In this document: positions 56,005-61,680 of the stretch, piece after piece
Layout: each line of letters starts with the position of its first letter
How positions within the stretch are numbered: position 1 is the first letter of the stretch
From: Flavobacterium sp. HBTb2-11-1
GTDB taxonomy: Bacteria > Bacteroidota > Bacteroidia > Flavobacteriales > Flavobacteriaceae
DNA: 64,000 bases
Reading direction: 5' to 3'
NCBI RefSeq assembly: GCF_009826975.1
Contig: NZ_WUMO01000007.1
Span: forward strand, 248,001-312,000
Program-made: the position numbers and the translations under genes
The notes under the pieces: model-generated
The model's database searches: none
What the model saw: the letters and a program-made list of their open reading frames with translations, nothing else
What the model was told of the DNA's origin: nothing

Positions 56005-56268
56005 TTACTTGATACTTTCTGATAAAATCATTAAAACAAGAATAAGCACAACGCAAAGAAAAACTGAATTAGGATTTGCAAAGTTGATCGTCCAGCCAAA
56101 TTCTTTAATTCTCTTTGGAGGAAAAATTCTTTTATCTTCTGGATTGTAATAGAAAAGTCCCCATACCCAATTGTCTGGATCTTGTTTCCAATTGTTTTTG
56201 TTCTTTTTCAAGGTTAATTGTTGTGGTTCATAAATTTTATTAAGAGATGTTTTCTTTCCAATATTCAC
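56005..56268 (-). CDS. DUF5808 small membrane protein
   Basis: An 87-residue protein with a DUF5808-like core (NWKQDPDNWVWGLFYYNPED, KRIFPPKRIKEFGWTINFANP) and one C-terminal helix (about 68-84). The frame opens with GTG at 56268, overlapping the exporter gene by 29 nt; a TTG at 56211 (68 residues) is an alternative. It is the last gene of the bacteriocin-like operon. DUF5808 occurs in other Flavobacteria without bacteriocins, so its link to the system may be only positional. Confidence 0.7.
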   Translation of the reverse strand: MNIGKKTSLNKIYEPQQLTLKKNKNNWKQDPDNWVWGLFYYNPEDKRIFPPKRIKEFGWTINFANPNSVFLCVVLILVLMILSESIK

Positions 56269-58399
56269 TGTAAAAATTATCTGTTTTCATTAATTCTTCA
56301 TGATTTCCAAACTTTGTTATTGTTCTATTTTCCAATATATAAATCGTATCAGCAATATTTCTTAATTTATGTAAGCGATGCGAAATGAATAAAACCGCAC
56401 AATCTTGTTTTATTTTTTGGAGTAACTGAATAGTGAAATTCTCAGTTTTTCGATCCATAGCTGAAGTGGCTTCATCTAAAATTAAAAATTGTGGCTTTTT
56501 AAAAAGAGCTCTGGCGAGTGCGATAATTTGTTTTTGTCCGCCACTTAAATTGATTCCTTCTTCACCAACAATTGTCATTAAGCCTTGTGGTAATAGGTCA
56601 AAATATAATTCAAAACCATATTTGCGGATAAAATCAATCATGTTTTCAAGCGTTTCTGTAGCTCCCAACAAAATGTTGTCTAATACATTTCCGTTGAAAA
56701 TTGTTATTTCCTGTGGGACTACACCTAATAATTCTCTATAACTTTTTAATCCAATTTCAGAAAGCTTATATTTATTATTAACTGTTATATTTCCGATTTC
56801 ATACGGATAAAAGCGTTTTAGTATTTGACCTAGTGTACTTTTTCCACTGCCACTTTCTCCAACAATTGCAATAATTTTGCCTTTTTCAATTTCTATATGT
56901 AAATCATGAAATAAAAGGCTTCGCCCTGGAAATCTAAAAGAAATATTTTGAATTGAAATTTTATTTATTTCAAAAATTTCTAAACCATCTTCATTTTCTT
57001 TTTCGATTGATGCAAATTCATACATTCTGTTAAAAGCTATTTTAGCTTCGTTTATCGGGATTGAAATTAACGCTAAATTTGCAATCGAAGGAAGTAAGGA
57101 GCCTACAATTCCTAAAATAGCCATCAATTCTCCTATTTTGATTTCTTTATTAAAAACTTGAATTGAAGCATAAATTAAAACTCCAATCAAAAATAAAACA
57201 CTTGCAAAACCTGATTGCCATGATAGAGAAATATTTATTTTTTCTAAATTGAAAATTTTCTCCTGAAAACCAGAAAAAATATTTTGATTTAATTTGCTAA
57301 AAATATATTGTTTGTTGTAGTTTTTTATAGTTGAAATGCCTTGAATTGTATTGATGAAGTTGCTTTCTGTCAAAGCATAATTTTGCATAACATCCACTTG
57401 GGATTTTATAATGTTTTTATTATTCCTGTAAATTATATAGAAATAAATTGGTAAGCTTAGTAACGAAATTATTCCTAATTGCCAGGAAAAACTAAATAGA
57501 AAAACTAAAGAAATAAGTGCAACCAATGTATCAATAACTAATGAACTCGTTAAGGTTTTAATAACACTCTGTATTCGTTGTGTGTCATTTAATCTAGCTA
57601 TTAATTCGCCTATTTTTCGTGTATGGAAAAAAAGTTTGGGCAATTGTAATAATGAAGAGAAAAAGGTATTATTTATTCGGTTGTTGAAATCTTTAGATTG
57701 TTGTATTAAGAAGTGCTGTCTTAAAATTGACAATCCAACTCTTGCAGAAAGTAGGATGAATAGTAGTGTGATTCCGGAAATTAATTTGTTTATATTATTT
57801 GAAGGCAATATATCGTCGATTAATTTTTGAGAAAAGATAGCCATTGCCATTCCTAGTCCAGCAACAAAAATACCAATGATTGTCGAAATGATTAATAGTT
57901 TAAAATCATCTCTAAGTAAGGTAATGAAGTACTTTTTTTTCGTTTTTTCTATTTGTTTCTCAGTTACAAATTTTGAGTTTGGAAATAGTAACAAGCAGTT
58001 CTTTGATTGCCATAATTGGTCAAGATTTTTTTCCGAGATATAATTTATTCCGATAGCTGGATCTCCAATTATAAATCCTTTTTCTTTATCATATTCATAA
58101 CAGACTACATAATGATCTGAATTGTTTTCTGTTTTGATTTGTAGAATTGCAGGTTCTGTATTTTCTTTTAAAGTATCTGTTGAAATGTTAAATCCTTCGG
58201 CATCAAAACCAAGATTGTTGGCAACTTCATACAAACCAAGCATAGTTGTTCCCTGAGACGTTGTGCCACTTAGTTCTCTTAGTTTTTCCAGCGAATAATT
58301 GCCTTTATAAAATTTAATTATGGATAGTAAACAGGCAACTCCACAATCAGATCTGTCAAGTTGTAAAGTATGGGTGTTTCTGATGTGTTTTGAAATCAT
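56240..58399 (-). CDS. C39-peptidase ABC exporter (bacteriocin processing and export)
   Basis: A 719-residue peptidase-containing ABC transporter that removes a double-glycine leader and exports the peptide. The N-terminal C39 domain has Cys19 in QLDRSDCGVACL, His96 (SDHYVVCYE) and Asp113 (GDPAIG); then six helices (about 155-450); then an ATPase with Walker A GESGSGKSTLG (about 512), the signature INLSGGQKQ (about 613), Walker B FLILDEATSAMD (about 635) and a switch His in LFISHRLHKLR. All parts needed for cleavage and export are intact. It lies in one operon with two precursors bearing MAGS leaders. No separate HlyD-type adaptor is present. Confidence 0.93.
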   Translation of the reverse strand: MISKHIRNTHTLQLDRSDCGVACLLSIIKFYKGNYSLEKLRELSGTTSQGTTMLGLYEVANNLGFDAEGFNISTDTLKENTEPAILQIKTENNSDHYVVCYEYDKEKGFIIGDPAIGINYISEKNLDQLWQSKNCLLLFPNSKFVTEKQIEKTKKKYFITLLRDDFKLLIISTIIGIFVAGLGMAMAIFSQKLIDDILPSNNINKLISGITLLFILLSARVGLSILRQHFLIQQSKDFNNRINNTFFSSLLQLPKLFFHTRKIGELIARLNDTQRIQSVIKTLTSSLVIDTLVALISLVFLFSFSWQLGIISLLSLPIYFYIIYRNNKNIIKSQVDVMQNYALTESNFINTIQGISTIKNYNKQYIFSKLNQNIFSGFQEKIFNLEKINISLSWQSGFASVLFLIGVLIYASIQVFNKEIKIGELMAILGIVGSLLPSIANLALISIPINEAKIAFNRMYEFASIEKENEDGLEIFEINKISIQNISFRFPGRSLLFHDLHIEIEKGKIIAIVGESGSGKSTLGQILKRFYPYEIGNITVNNKYKLSEIGLKSYRELLGVVPQEITIFNGNVLDNILLGATETLENMIDFIRKYGFELYFDLLPQGLMTIVGEEGINLSGGQKQIIALARALFKKPQFLILDEATSAMDRKTENFTIQLLQKIKQDCAVLFISHRLHKLRNIADTIYILENRTITKFGNHEELMKTDNFYSEYWKENIS

Positions 58400-58419
58400 T
58401 GATAATGTAGCTAATGAAA

Positions 58420-59262
58420 CTATATTTTATCTTTAACAATATCGTTTGGTGTAAAATAGAAAACGTTTGGTATTGGATTTAAAGGCACATGATCTTTTAC
58501 AATATTTTTTAATCGAATTAGATTATAATACATGCCTTCAAATTCATTTTTGTATATAATACTTCCATTATCCCATTTTATATCACCTGGTAAACCTTCA
58601 ACAATTATGAAATCAAAGAAAGCTTTTATTTTACCTTCTTTTTCTGCTTGTTTAACCACATAAGTCATACTTTGTATTCGCTCTGGAAAATCAAATATTG
58701 AGGCTCCATTCTGCAATTCATAAAATAAAAAATTGCATTCATCAAAACAAAAATGCTCAGGTCTGCTAAAAACAAGTTTATAATCTTTGCTTTGCTTAAA
58801 TAATGTGTTGGTAAATTCAATATTTCGGTACAAACAAAATGTACCAGTTATGAAATCGTGTCTGCTACTTACAACATCATATTCTGAAAGTAATTCTTCA
58901 GTCATAAAATCTCGTATGTTGCCATAAACCATATCAATATCACCATGTCCCCAAAAATCATAGTCCTGTAATATGTCAGAAAAAATAAAACCATATGCAG
59001 GTTTGAAATCGCATAGTTTGTACGGATATTCGAGATTAACGGTAAAACCCAATTTTTGTGAAGCTAAATTTCGAATGTCATCAGGAGTTTTGTAAATAAT
59101 CTTTACATTTTTGGGTTTGTTTGGAATAGTTTCGAGGTTATTGGTAATTATTATAAAATCAACAGTTGGATTGTAGACGCAAGAATGGACAAAATACGGA
59201 AAATACCATGGATAATCGCCATACCAACATGTAAGCATTGCAATAGAAGTTAATTTTGTCAT
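58420..59262 (-). CDS. DUF6625-like glycosyltransferase-fold protein
   Basis: A 280-residue cytoplasmic protein with the start TSIAMLTCWYGDYPWYFPYFVHSC, a DxD-like GHGDIDMVYGNIRDF (about 116-130) and CLYRNIEF. The sequence resembles the family I know as DUF6625, seen beside glycosyltransferases in Bacteroidota, and the DID motif fits a GT-A sugar-nucleotide site. Its place between the thioredoxin-like and exporter genes suggests it acts on the peptide (perhaps glycosylating Ser/Thr or Asn) or on a carrier. This is inference. It overlaps the thioredoxin-like gene by 4 nt. Confidence 0.75.
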   Translation of the reverse strand: MTKLTSIAMLTCWYGDYPWYFPYFVHSCVYNPTVDFIIITNNLETIPNKPKNVKIIYKTPDDIRNLASQKLGFTVNLEYPYKLCDFKPAYGFIFSDILQDYDFWGHGDIDMVYGNIRDFMTEELLSEYDVVSSRHDFITGTFCLYRNIEFTNTLFKQSKDYKLVFSRPEHFCFDECNFLFYELQNGASIFDFPERIQSMTYVVKQAEKEGKIKAFFDFIIVEGLPGDIKWDNGSIIYKNEFEGMYYNLIRLKNIVKDHVPLNPIPNVFYFTPNDIVKDKI

Positions 59263-59780
59263 TGTTTATTTATTTTCTTCAAGATGTGATCAATTTTTAC
59301 TTGACCTTTTATTTTTTCTAATAATTGTTGTTGATTATTATAGATTACAATTGTTGGAAAAGCTTTAACATCAAATGTTTTAGAAAAGACAACTTGTTTG
59401 TCATAGATGAAATGAATGTTATCATGATTCAATAACTGATAATTTTCGGCAAATTTTTTGATTTTTAAAGGTGATTCAAATGAAATAAATATCAATTGTG
59501 TGTTTTTGAATTGCTCAATGTTTTTCTTAATTATTTCAACTTCAGTATTGCAAAACTCACATTCAGTATTAAAATATAAGAATATGGTTGGTGTGTTTTT
59601 TTTTAAGTTATGATTGTTGAATAAAACCCCATTGATATCCTCAAATGAAAATTCAGGTATTTTTTTGATATTTTTTGTGACCTCATTTTTATGATTTATT
59701 CTAAAAATTATTTTAGTTATCAGAAAGGATAAAAGAATCAAAACAGTTAGGGGCAAAAATATTTTTAACGGCTTTTTCAT
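59259..59780 (-). CDS. Membrane-anchored thioredoxin-like protein
   Basis: A 173-residue protein with an N-terminal membrane helix (about 8-27) and a redoxin domain like TlpA/AhpC: IPEFSFEDINGVLFNNHNL (about 42-60), the active site YFNTECEFCNTEV (CxxC, about 75-78) and a cis-Pro candidate in FDVKAFPTIVIYN. It should face the periplasm and handle disulfides. Each precursor in this operon has two core cysteines, so oxidation or isomerisation of the exported peptides is a plausible role. It ends 4 nt into the next gene. Confidence 0.85.
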   Translation of the reverse strand: MKKPLKIFLPLTVLILLSFLITKIIFRINHKNEVTKNIKKIPEFSFEDINGVLFNNHNLKKNTPTIFLYFNTECEFCNTEVEIIKKNIEQFKNTQLIFISFESPLKIKKFAENYQLLNHDNIHFIYDKQVVFSKTFDVKAFPTIVIYNNQQQLLEKIKGQVKIDHILKKINKQ

Positions 59781-59797
59781 TTTTCTTCTTTTATAAA

Positions 59798-60427
59798 TTA
59801 AGTGTAATTAAGAGTGAAAAACATTACTGTCGCAACCCATAAAGCTAATGATGGTATATAGCTTAAGCCAACTATTTTTAATCCATAGTCAGCATTTGTG
59901 TTTGTTATTTTGCCAATTTGATATGCCAAATAAATAATGTATGAGAGTTCAAATAAATTGAGTACCTGAAAAGGATAAATGAACCATGTTTCCAGATTTT
60001 TGTAACCCACAATATTTAAAGCTGATAAGGGGTAGAAATTTTGAACATCTATTAAATTGTAGTCAGGTTGAAAAAATAAAAACCAAAGAGTTTTAATTAT
60101 TGGAACTAATAAAAAAATGAATTCTGTATTGAGAGCAATATTCCATATTTGTTTAAATTTCAAATCTCGGCTATTTAAGAATAAGCCAACATAAAGAATT
60201 GTTGCAATAATCGATGTTTTAAGTAAAAGCATTATTGAAATATAGAAATATGTCAACGAATGCCATTTATCCTGAAATTCAAAATACTTCTCGATTTGTT
60301 GTAATGTGAAAAAATCTGAAAGATAATCACGAATTAAACTATTTAGATGTAGAATCCTACTTGTTATTTCTGCTATAATTATAAGTAATATTGAAAGTAT
60401 TATATATTTTGCAAAAGGACTCTTCAT
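59798..60427 (-). CDS. Five-helix membrane protein of the bacteriocin-like operon
   Basis: A 209-residue inner-membrane protein with about five helices (about 7-24, 63-85, 98-118, 155-173, 186-206). No named family was recognised. It starts 24 nt after the attenuator hairpin and 18 nt before the thioredoxin-like gene. Candidate roles are immunity, helping export, or supplying a redox partner; the position beside a thioredoxin-like gene makes the last two worth testing. Confidence 0.72.
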   Translation of the reverse strand: MKSPFAKYIILSILLIIIAEITSRILHLNSLIRDYLSDFFTLQQIEKYFEFQDKWHSLTYFYISIMLLLKTSIIATILYVGLFLNSRDLKFKQIWNIALNTEFIFLLVPIIKTLWFLFFQPDYNLIDVQNFYPLSALNIVGYKNLETWFIYPFQVLNLFELSYIIYLAYQIGKITNTNADYGLKIVGLSYIPSLALWVATVMFFTLNYT

Positions 60428-60450
60428 AAAGTAAATATTTTACGATTGTT

Positions 60451-60481
60451 AATAAAAGCACTACCTCTTTTGAGGTAATGC
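60451..60481 (-). terminator. Attenuator between precursor and downstream genes
   Basis: Read on the minus strand: GCATTACCTC / GAGGTAGTGC (10 bp with one G-T pair), loop AAAA, then TTTTATT. It lies 31 nt past the second precursor stop and before the five-helix gene. Such a hairpin lets peptide transcripts greatly exceed those for export and modification. Confidence 0.75.
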
Positions 60482-60511
60482 CTTTCTTTTCAATACTATT
60501 ATCTAGTTAAT

Positions 60512-60709
60512 CTAGCTATTCCAGCATGCTTTTGCCATTGTATTCCAAAACTGAGAAGTTGAATTAGCACCAACATTTGCCCACACAAACATGATACCCA
60601 CTGTACCACAACCATATCCGCTTCCAGCCATAATGCTTTCCATTTCAGATGTAGTGAGTTTATTCCCAATATTTGCAAGACATATTTTTTTTACTTTTCT
60701 TTTTTTCAT
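60512..60709 (-). CDS. Bacteriocin-like precursor peptide B
   Basis: A 65-residue precursor. The leader (1-30) is KICLANIGNKLTTSEMESIMAGS and ends in Gly-Ser, a double-glycine-type C39 cleavage site. The 35-residue core begins GYGCGTVGIMFVWANVGANS and ends MAKACWNS, with cysteines at residues 34 and 62 that could form a disulfide, Trp and Gly rich, weakly cationic. The core contains an NST sequence. The leader aligns with precursor A while the core does not, as expected for paired or divergent peptides processed by one exporter. Confidence 0.85.
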   Translation of the reverse strand: MKKRKVKKICLANIGNKLTTSEMESIMAGSGYGCGTVGIMFVWANVGANSTSQFWNTMAKACWNS

Positions 60710-60736
60710 GATTTATGTTTTTTTTAAATTAAAAAC

Positions 60737-60913
60737 TTACTTTTCTTTTATAAACATATACAACAATAACATGTTCCATATTATAAGCATTATGAGTAAA
60801 AAATGAATCCAAATATTGTCAATTTGAAAAAGCAATCTCTCATTACAAAAAACTAATATTGAAGCAATAATGTTAAATGAAATTATGAACAATTTTGATC
60901 CTATTTTTTTCAT
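60737..60913 (-). CDS. 58-residue membrane peptide, possible immunity protein
   Basis: The ATG at 60913 follows the precursor A stop by 11 nt, in the same direction. The frame MKKIGSKLFIISFNIIASIL... has two strongly hydrophobic segments (about 6-24 and 36-55) joined by NERLLFQIDNIW and ends FIKEK. Small membrane proteins encoded directly after a precursor are typically immunity proteins; here it sits between the two precursors. The longer frame opening at 61054 is ruled out because it runs antiframe through precursor A. Evidence is position and hydropathy only. Confidence 0.6.
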   Translation of the reverse strand: MKKIGSKLFIISFNIIASILVFCNERLLFQIDNIWIHFLLIMLIIWNMLLLYMFIKEK

Positions 60914-60924
60914 AGTGTTAAGTT

Positions 60925-61161
60925 TTAAAAGCAATTTGAAGATGCAGCAGAATAAAATCCTCCAATAGCTCCACCAGCAAATAGCATCCCAACACCACCT
61001 CCGATAGCTGAGGCAGCTCCCATGAATCCAATTCCAACGCCCATTAAAAAGCAATTTCTACCTGTACTCCCAGCCATAACATTCTCCATTTCATCTTTTG
61101 TCAATTTGCCTTCAATATTGACAAGACTCATTTTTTTGATTTTAGTTTCAATTTTTTCCAT
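60925..61161 (-). CDS. Bacteriocin-like precursor peptide A
   Basis: A 78-residue precursor. Leader 1-32 includes MSLVNIEGKLTKDEMENVMA and ends in Gly-Ser (31-32), matching precursor B almost position by position. The 46-residue core begins TGRNCFLMGVGIGFMGAAS and ends SAASSNCF; it is very Gly/Ala/Ser rich and hydrophobic with GxxxG-like spacing, as in class IIb two-peptide bacteriocins, and has cysteines at 37 and 77 able to link the ends. First gene of the operon; ATG at 61161, with an inner ATG at codon 11 possible. Confidence 0.88.
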   Translation of the reverse strand: MEKIETKIKKMSLVNIEGKLTKDEMENVMAGSTGRNCFLMGVGIGFMGAASAIGGGVGMLFAGGAIGGFYSAASSNCF

Positions 61162-61211
61162 GATTATATAATTTATTGGTTAATATTAGATTATCAGAAT
61201 AAATGATATAG

Positions 61212-61256
61212 CAAATTTATAATAGGTCACAAAAAAGTCTCAACCGAAAATCGGTT
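61212..61256 (-). promoter_or_regulatory. Operon promoter with overlapping palindromic operator
   Basis: On the minus strand TAAATTTG (+ 61212-61219) is an exact -7 element, and a TTG at + 61241-61243 lies 21 nt upstream as a -33 element. A perfect palindrome, AACCGA AAA TCGGTT (61242-61256), covers that -33 element. This is where the XRE-type regulator encoded next door would be expected to repress. Confidence 0.6.
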
Positions 61257-61279
61257 ATTAAAAACCTGAATTCGAATAA

Positions 61280-61308
61280 TTGTAAAATAATTCTTATGTT
61301 TATATTTG
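61280..61308 (+). promoter_or_regulatory. Promoter of the XRE regulator
   Basis: TTG at 61280-61282, an 18-nt spacer and TATATTTG at 61301-61308, about 19 nt before the ATG at 61327. The palindrome at 61242-61256 lies just upstream. Confidence 0.45.
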
Positions 61309-61326
61309 TTTTTTAAATTGTTAATT

Positions 61327-61680
61327 ATGAATAAAATTGTAGGAGATAATCTAAAAGTTTTGAGAAAATCAAAAAATATGTCGCAAGAAGAGGCTGCGGA
61401 TCATTTGAAAATTTCTCAATCGGCTTATGCTAGAATGGAACGTGGAGAGAGTACATCTTGGGCTATCCATTTTAATAAAATATGTCAGATTTTTGAAATA
61501 TCTCCAGAAGAATTAGTTCGAAAAGGATTAGGAGATTCTGTTTATGAAAGTCTAATGAATACAGAACGACAAACAGAGATTGCAATGTTAGGGGTTTATA
61601 GAAAAATTATAAAGCAATATGAGTTGCAAATTCAAGATTTGAAAACCATTATAAGACACTTAAATAAAGGCAAAAATTAA
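61327..61680 (+). CDS. XRE-family transcriptional regulator
   Basis: A 117-residue regulator with an N-terminal HTH (about 6-60: NLKVLRKSKNMSQEEAADHLKISQSAYARMERG) and a C-terminal coiled helix (about 80-115, YRKIIKQYELQIQDLKTIIRHL) that may dimerise. It is divergent from the bacteriocin-like operon. The ATG at 61327 was preferred to the TTG at 61306, which lies inside the -7 element. It probably represses the operon and itself through the intervening palindrome; no partner sensor or pheromone kinase is encoded. Confidence 0.85.
   Translation: MNKIVGDNLKVLRKSKNMSQEEAADHLKISQSAYARMERGESTSWAIHFNKICQIFEISPEELVRKGLGDSVYESLMNTERQTEIAMLGVYRKIIKQYELQIQDLKTIIRHLNKGKN

Follow-up and report, generated by a model that had tools for sequence, protein, structure and literature searches.

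A bacteroidetocin-type operon in Flavobacterium with a candidate leader-guided peptide glycosyltransferase of the DUF6625 family

Introduction

Bacteroidetocins, the class IIf bacteriocins, are encoded by a compact gene set consisting of a five-transmembrane protein, a precursor with a 15–16-residue leader ending in Gly-Gly (GG), a thiol oxidoreductase and an ATP-binding cassette (ABC) exporter with a C39 peptidase domain, and these four genes are enough for toxin activity in Escherichia coli (PMC6671954). The five-transmembrane protein of one such system is needed for full activity and confers no immunity (PMC6671954). Here we describe an island of Flavobacterium sp. HBTb2-11-1 that shares this gene set and lies within a 64,000-nucleotide stretch of contig NZ_WUMO01000007.1, hereafter the window, whose positions serve as coordinates throughout. 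Like the bacteroidetocin loci, the island belongs to a member of the Bacteroidota, encodes no separate cyclase and has at least two Cys in each core (exactly two in the window). It departs from them in its leaders, which are about 29–31 residues long and end in AG↓S (arrow, predicted cleavage point) rather than 15–16 residues long and ending in GG, and in holding two precursors and an extra gene for a predicted glycosyltransferase, DUF6625. DUF6625 is the new part of the island; the core module is already known.

Glycocins (sublancin, glycocin F, thermoglycocin) likewise place a leader-bearing precursor, a C39 ABC exporter and a glycosyltransferase in one operon (PMC12457901). The island differs from them in that DUF6625 matches no GT2/SunS/GccA-type family and has a fold nearest to GT6 and GT8, in that each two-Cys core could form a single disulfide in place of the nested pairs of a helix-loop-helix core, and in that its host comes from a Gram-negative phylum and its glycosylation is predicted. 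Glycocin operons also encode thioredoxins. Class II microcins such as microcin V combine a two-Cys, Gly-rich core with a double-glycine-type leader and a C39 exporter, as in the window. The Pfam match to MccV is weak (E 0.048), and, unlike microcin V, the window operon is without an HlyD partner and has a dedicated thioredoxin, a five-helix membrane protein, a long leader and a glycosyltransferase. A further relative is found in the VKOR-thioredoxin/C39/HlyD operons for cysteine-rich peptides in Bacteroidota, whose DUF6625-bearing branch shares the long leader and DUF6625 with the window, but whose cores have about six Cys, whose oxidase is a VKOR fusion, which include HlyD, and whose exporter belongs to a different clade; their precursors match the NCBIfam model leader_Chryseo ('bacteriocin-like protein') only below cut-off. 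The island stands with the bacteroidetocins in gene set and apart from them in leader length, and it stands apart from the glycocins in enzyme family and disulfide pattern.

We consider it probable that the island arose when an operon of bacteroidetocin type captured a peptide glycosyltransferase guided by the leader, giving a glycocin-like system built on an unrelated enzyme family.

Results

Organization of the island

The minus-strand run from 61161 to 56005 comprises eight genes, from precursor 1 to a DUF5808 gene, with an XRE-family gene diverging from it:

60925..61161, minus strand: precursor 1, 78 residues; leader MEKIETKIKKMSLVNIEGKLTKDEMENVMAG, of the type common to DUF6625 loci; Gly-rich core STGRNC...SSNCF with two Cys
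60737..60913, minus strand: 58-residue peptide, an immunity candidate for which two membrane helices are predicted; homologues lie 3' of the exporter in loci L058 and L059
60512..60709, minus strand: precursor 2, 65 residues; leader MKKRKVKKICLANIGNKLTTSEMESIMAG; core SGYGCG...KACWNS with two Cys
59798..60427, minus strand: five-helix membrane protein, 209 residues, grouped by its relatives and model with the membrane proteins of bacteroidetocin-type core modules; without a Pfam family
59259..59780, minus strand: CEFC thioredoxin-like protein, membrane-anchored, 173 residues (AhpC-TSA, E 1e-10); putative thiol oxidoreductase for the core disulfides
58420..59262, minus strand: DUF6625 protein, 280 residues (PF20330, E 1e-59); predicted from its fold as a GT-A-type glycosyltransferase, with D108-x-D110
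56240..58399, minus strand: C39-peptidase ABC exporter, 719 residues (Pfam); predicted leader cleavage and export
56005..56268, minus strand: DUF5808 protein, 87 residues (Pfam, E 5e-8)
61327..61680, plus strand: XRE-family regulator, divergent (HTH_3, E 2e-10); equivalent position in L037, L038, L039 and L040
61212..61257, minus strand: candidate operon promoter TTG-21-TAAATTTG, with palindrome AACCGATTTTCGGTT on the -33 element; consensus match only

Consecutive operon genes are separated by 11, 27, 84, 17, -4, 20 and -29 bases, and the overlaps of the thioredoxin and DUF6625 genes (4 bases) and of the exporter and DUF5808 genes (29 bases) argue for one transcription unit. Both leaders, about 31 and 29 residues long, end in EM..(V/I)MAG↓S, in fuller form KMSL…EM..(V/I)MAG↓S. 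The exporter has C39 peptidase (E 1e-30), ABC membrane (5e-32) and ABC_tran (6e-27) domains in Pfam, while the precursors, the 58-residue peptide and the membrane protein gave no Pfam or NCBIfam family above cut-off. The membrane-protein model consists of five long helices (predicted local distance difference test, pLDDT, 75), and a fold search of the PDB with it returned no match. The palindrome over the -33 element (61241–61257) is a likely operator for the XRE protein, judging from sequence; it is preserved in relatives (L037, L058 and L059), with compensating changes.

The original prediction, which had been made from the letters of the window, is confirmed in its observations and supported in part in its interpretation. 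The genes it listed are all where it placed them, and its two precursors with matching MAGS leaders do share the EM..(V/I)MAG↓S ending, each with exactly two Cys in the core. Its description of the island as more AT-rich than its neighbours agrees with a G+C fraction of 0.23–0.32 against about 0.30–0.39 on the flanks (the lysC and barrel genes there being identified by inspection), and a C39-exported secreted peptide system with probable disulfides is supported. The XRE gene is divergent as described, although its start is more plausibly the ATG at 61327 than the TTG at 61306; the membrane protein, correctly noticed but left vague, has five helices according to its relatives and model. The reported lack of a lanthipeptide cyclase, radical SAM or ATP-grasp enzyme in the operon held in Pfam and NCBIfam searches. 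A lanthipeptide, radical SAM or ATP-grasp peptide system was rejected because the operon encodes no matching tailoring enzyme, as was a simple class IIa bacteriocin, for which the YGNGVXC box is absent.

DUF6625 as a predicted glycosyltransferase

The AlphaFold model of the DUF6625 protein (pLDDT 94, predicted TM-score 0.91) was compared with the PDB using Foldseek, and the matches at E ≤ 0.001 were glycosyltransferases or complexes containing one. GT8 glycogenin and GT6 enzymes, one of them bacterial, led these GT-A matches, which also included LgtC, other GT8 enzymes and GTA/GTB; E was about 1e-4, probabilities were mostly 0.97–1.00, and template modelling (TM) scores reached 0.54 when scaled to the target and 0.45 when scaled to the query. 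D108 and D110, which form the putative DxD motif, are invariant in 65 DUF6625 sequences. PF20330 was the only Pfam family above cut-off for the window protein, with no match to GT2, and nucleoporin matches of the DUF6625 profile in a PDB sequence search (E 0.02) were taken as chance. Nearly all close relatives lack GT8 proteins. On plasmids of Lactococcus, Lactiplantibacillus and Proteus, DUF6625 sits among glycosyltransferases and other polysaccharide-cluster genes. The GT-A fold, the invariant DxD motif and this genomic context in other phyla together indicate that DUF6625 is very probably a glycosyltransferase, in line with the sugar enzyme first suspected, and its acceptor is to be judged from context. 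The literature searched, which had most subscription papers outside its scope, contained no mention of DUF6625 and no description of a glycocin-like system in Flavobacterium.

The polysaccharide clusters also lend themselves to an alternative in which DUF6625 protects the producer by adding sugar to a target on its own cell surface and leaves the peptide alone. This would suit the lack of a clear immunity gene at bacteroidetocin loci (PMC6671954) and the targeting of the surface protein BamA by bacteroidetocins (PMC8546649), through which they kill Bacteroidales, but it leaves unexplained why the leader and the first core residue change with DUF6625, as described below, and we regard it as distinctly improbable.

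Co-occurrence of the long leader and DUF6625

Relatives of DUF6625 were sampled at 78 named genomic loci, with neighbours counted within the stretch examined. A C39 exporter is present at 57 of them and directly adjacent at 37, HlyD is found at 44 and a VKOR-thioredoxin fusion at 38. Their precursors are mostly cysteine-rich and have a common leader, M..(Q/E)KMSLANI.GKLSR.EMK.IMAG↓SG. A control set of 40 loci, chosen by their VKOR-thioredoxin protein alone, has 38 members without DUF6625; leaders at those 38 are mostly short and end in GG, with any residue next. The long leader occurs in 65 of the 74 precursors with DUF6625 compared with 2 of the 70 without (Fisher 3e-28, kinship ignored), and Ser stands at core position +1 in 64/74 compared with 12/70 (Fisher 1e-17, kinship again ignored). 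Among core positions +1 to +6 only this one and +2 differ strongly, the latter being Gly in 43/74 with DUF6625 and 7/70 without. An exporter tree of 68 loci, with at least 10 changes of DUF6625 state on well-supported branches, yielded 10 independent contrasts: the leader changes with DUF6625 in eight and against it in none (p = 0.008), and +1 Ser follows DUF6625 in about six and opposes it in none (p = 0.03).

The sampled loci vary further. In Flavobacterium tagetis (L082), a tandem array of five related precursors, all with this leader type, precedes a single TlpA/VKOR/DUF6625/C39/HlyD set, and Rhodohalobacter sulfatireducens (L130, Balneolota) has a DUF6625 peptide operon with an IMAG↓S leader beyond Bacteroidota proper. 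L056 and L071 hold DUF6625 in one stretch with lantibiotic dehydratase and cyclase-like genes and may encode glycosylated lanthipeptides. VKOR-thioredoxin/C39 ABC/HlyD operons with cysteine-rich precursors are widespread in Bacteroidota, mostly without DUF6625 (L222–L261), and the window's host genome has one of its own (L258, at G000:C1:283345).

The core module without DUF6625

The membrane protein, thioredoxin and C39 exporter occur without DUF6625 in other Flavobacterium (L038–L043), in other families (L044, L045), across the phylum (L165, L168, L169, L170, L172, L177, L181, L186) and on a plasmid of Flammeovirga pectinis (L268); on that plasmid a LanC-like protein and a glycosyltransferase come after the module. 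The precursors of DUF6625-free modules have short leaders such as MKKLELNQMENLEGG, with the 15–16 residues and GG end of class IIf, and Gly-rich cores, mostly with two Cys; precursor 1 of the window resembles that of L042 (phmmer 2e-5). Genomes G120, G095 and G042 carry a DUF6625-free module and an XRE gene at the equivalent chromosomal site beside lysC, and the DUF5808 gene is also found at the equivalent site in relatives without DUF6625. Because the module recurs in this form, including at the lysC site, the frame of the island was already known, and the earlier view that it fits no known class gives way to a match with published bacteroidetocin loci (PMC6671954). The DUF6625-free state of the module is the common one.

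That state, together with the activity of unmodified synthetic bacteroidetocin A (PMC6671954), speaks for a plain class IIf locus in which the peptides undergo cleavage and disulfide formation only and DUF6625 is a passenger or inactive on peptides. We nevertheless find this unlikely: the DUF6625 gene shares 4 bases with the thioredoxin gene, persists in four Flavobacterium genomes (the window's, F. anhuiense, F. ustbae and Flavobacterium sp. ACN6), was most likely gained again in the Prevotellaceae locus L096 at another position, and is accompanied by a change of leader type. Since F. anhuiense, F. ustbae and ACN6 all conserve the unit, chance is excluded. The original prediction had held that relatives with exporter and precursors but neither DUF6625 nor thioredoxin would make this a simple bacteriocin locus; DUF6625-free relatives with precursor, membrane protein and exporter are indeed common (L038–L045, L165–L177), but they nearly always keep the thioredoxin and have the short GG leader, which makes DUF6625 look like more than a neighbor by accident.

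Distant relatives of the five-helix protein in L178–L184, L187 and L188 have no thioredoxin or exporter nearby and may serve another role, and L189 and L191 are C39 loci that combine the membrane protein with a different protein of about 300 residues in the thioredoxin's place and with Cys-bearing KFWG... precursors. A Phocaeicola plasmid match (H12) was set aside, since its C39 exporter is of a different, HlyD/TolC type and the module is lacking.

Leader exchange and acquisition of DUF6625

The precursors of L039, without DUF6625, and L059, with DUF6625, have cores that are 96% identical over 48 residues and leaders that are 23% identical, the former bearing a short GG leader and the latter a long AG↓S leader. 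Acquisition of DUF6625 by the window clade (window, F. anhuiense, F. ustbae and ACN6) and by a Prevotellaceae metagenome-assembled genome (L096) was most likely separate, as sequence comparison suggests: the two fall on separate branches of the membrane-protein tree, where the placement of L096 is unsure because its branch is long, and the gene order is membrane protein–thioredoxin–DUF6625–exporter in the former and membrane protein–thioredoxin–exporter–DUF6625 in the latter, yet both have the long AG↓S leader. The window DUF6625 falls among those of cysteine-rich peptide operons of Chitinophagaceae. These separate acquisitions with the long leader, and the placement of the window enzyme, suggest that leader and DUF6625 behave as one functional pair brought into a foreign operon, as a leader-guided enzyme predicts.

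Leader and DUF6625 could instead have been co-inherited as one cassette from cysteine-rich peptide operons, among which the window DUF6625 nests and from which the two could move as a block, with no functional contact between them. This seems very improbable to us, since in the window the leader and DUF6625 are parted by the membrane-protein and thioredoxin genes of another system, in L096 by still more genes, and every contrast with a leader difference points in one direction.

Exchange of cores is also visible. The F. anhuiense island is 97.8% identical to the window over 6.5 kb, except that the DNA between 61066, where the leader of precursor 1 meets its core, and 60384, within the first membrane-protein codons, finds no match; this suggests that cores and small membrane peptides are swapped together as one cassette and that the leader and the machinery remain in place. 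In F. anhuiense (L037/L057), the long leader of precursor 1 is intact but its L039-type core lies in another reading frame, so the gene looks broken or contains a sequencing error.

Discussion

How a bacteroidetocin-type operon with a captured glycosyltransferase might work can be sketched from what sequence or structural model shows, namely the genes of the island, its core module, the GT-A fold of DUF6625 and the link between leader and DUF6625. The products of the operon would be two small peptides that are secreted and most likely serve as antibacterials aimed at related bacteria. The precursors would be translated carrying long leaders, and DUF6625 would recognise the KMSL...EM..MAG leader and attach a sugar close to the N-terminal end of the core, where the conserved +1 Ser is the leading acceptor candidate. 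The C39 domain of the exporter would cleave after Ala-Gly, as the motif suggests, and the ABC part would export the core, with the thioredoxin closing the single disulfide of each core and the five-helix membrane protein perhaps accessory to the disulfide step or to export. The small membrane peptides are candidates for immunity and the XRE protein for regulation.

More tentatively, and with less confidence than in the reading of the window itself, DUF6625 might represent a novel type of peptide glycosyltransferase that is guided by the leader, has no relation to the GT2 enzymes of glycocins and acts, throughout the Bacteroidota, on the N-terminal Ser of peptides exported by C39 systems. It might have moved into bacteroidetocin-type operons on two or more occasions, always with its leader, one pair of precursors having kept its core nearly unchanged while the leader was replaced.

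Several observations weigh against a peptide glycosyltransferase. A glycosyltransferase fold alone is no proof of a peptide acceptor, and on the Lactococcus, Lactiplantibacillus and Proteus plasmids DUF6625 lies in polysaccharide clusters. No C39 exporter was seen in the stretch examined at 21 of the 78 DUF6625 loci. The leader regular expression was composed after the data had been seen. L240 and L257 have IMAG↓S precursors without the KMSL extension and no DUF6625 in the stretch examined, and are exceptions to the +1 Ser pattern, while L052, L131 and L132 pair divergent, longer DUF6625 proteins with GG↓Y/F leaders. Only two acquisitions are clearly independent among loci of the membrane-protein module, and the membrane protein of the window appears linked to the characterised bacteroidetocin protein by architecture.

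In summary, the link between leader and DUF6625 across the phylum suggests an unrecognised family of sugar-modified bacterial peptides. If this is true, glycosylated secreted peptides would be common in a major Gram-negative phylum and would have been overlooked because the annotation of their enzyme goes no further than a domain of unknown function, and DUF6625 would gain a likely function together with a searchable leader signature. Near-identical cores that occur with two leaders, with and without DUF6625, amount to a natural experiment in which leaders may act as exchangeable recruiters of tailoring enzymes.

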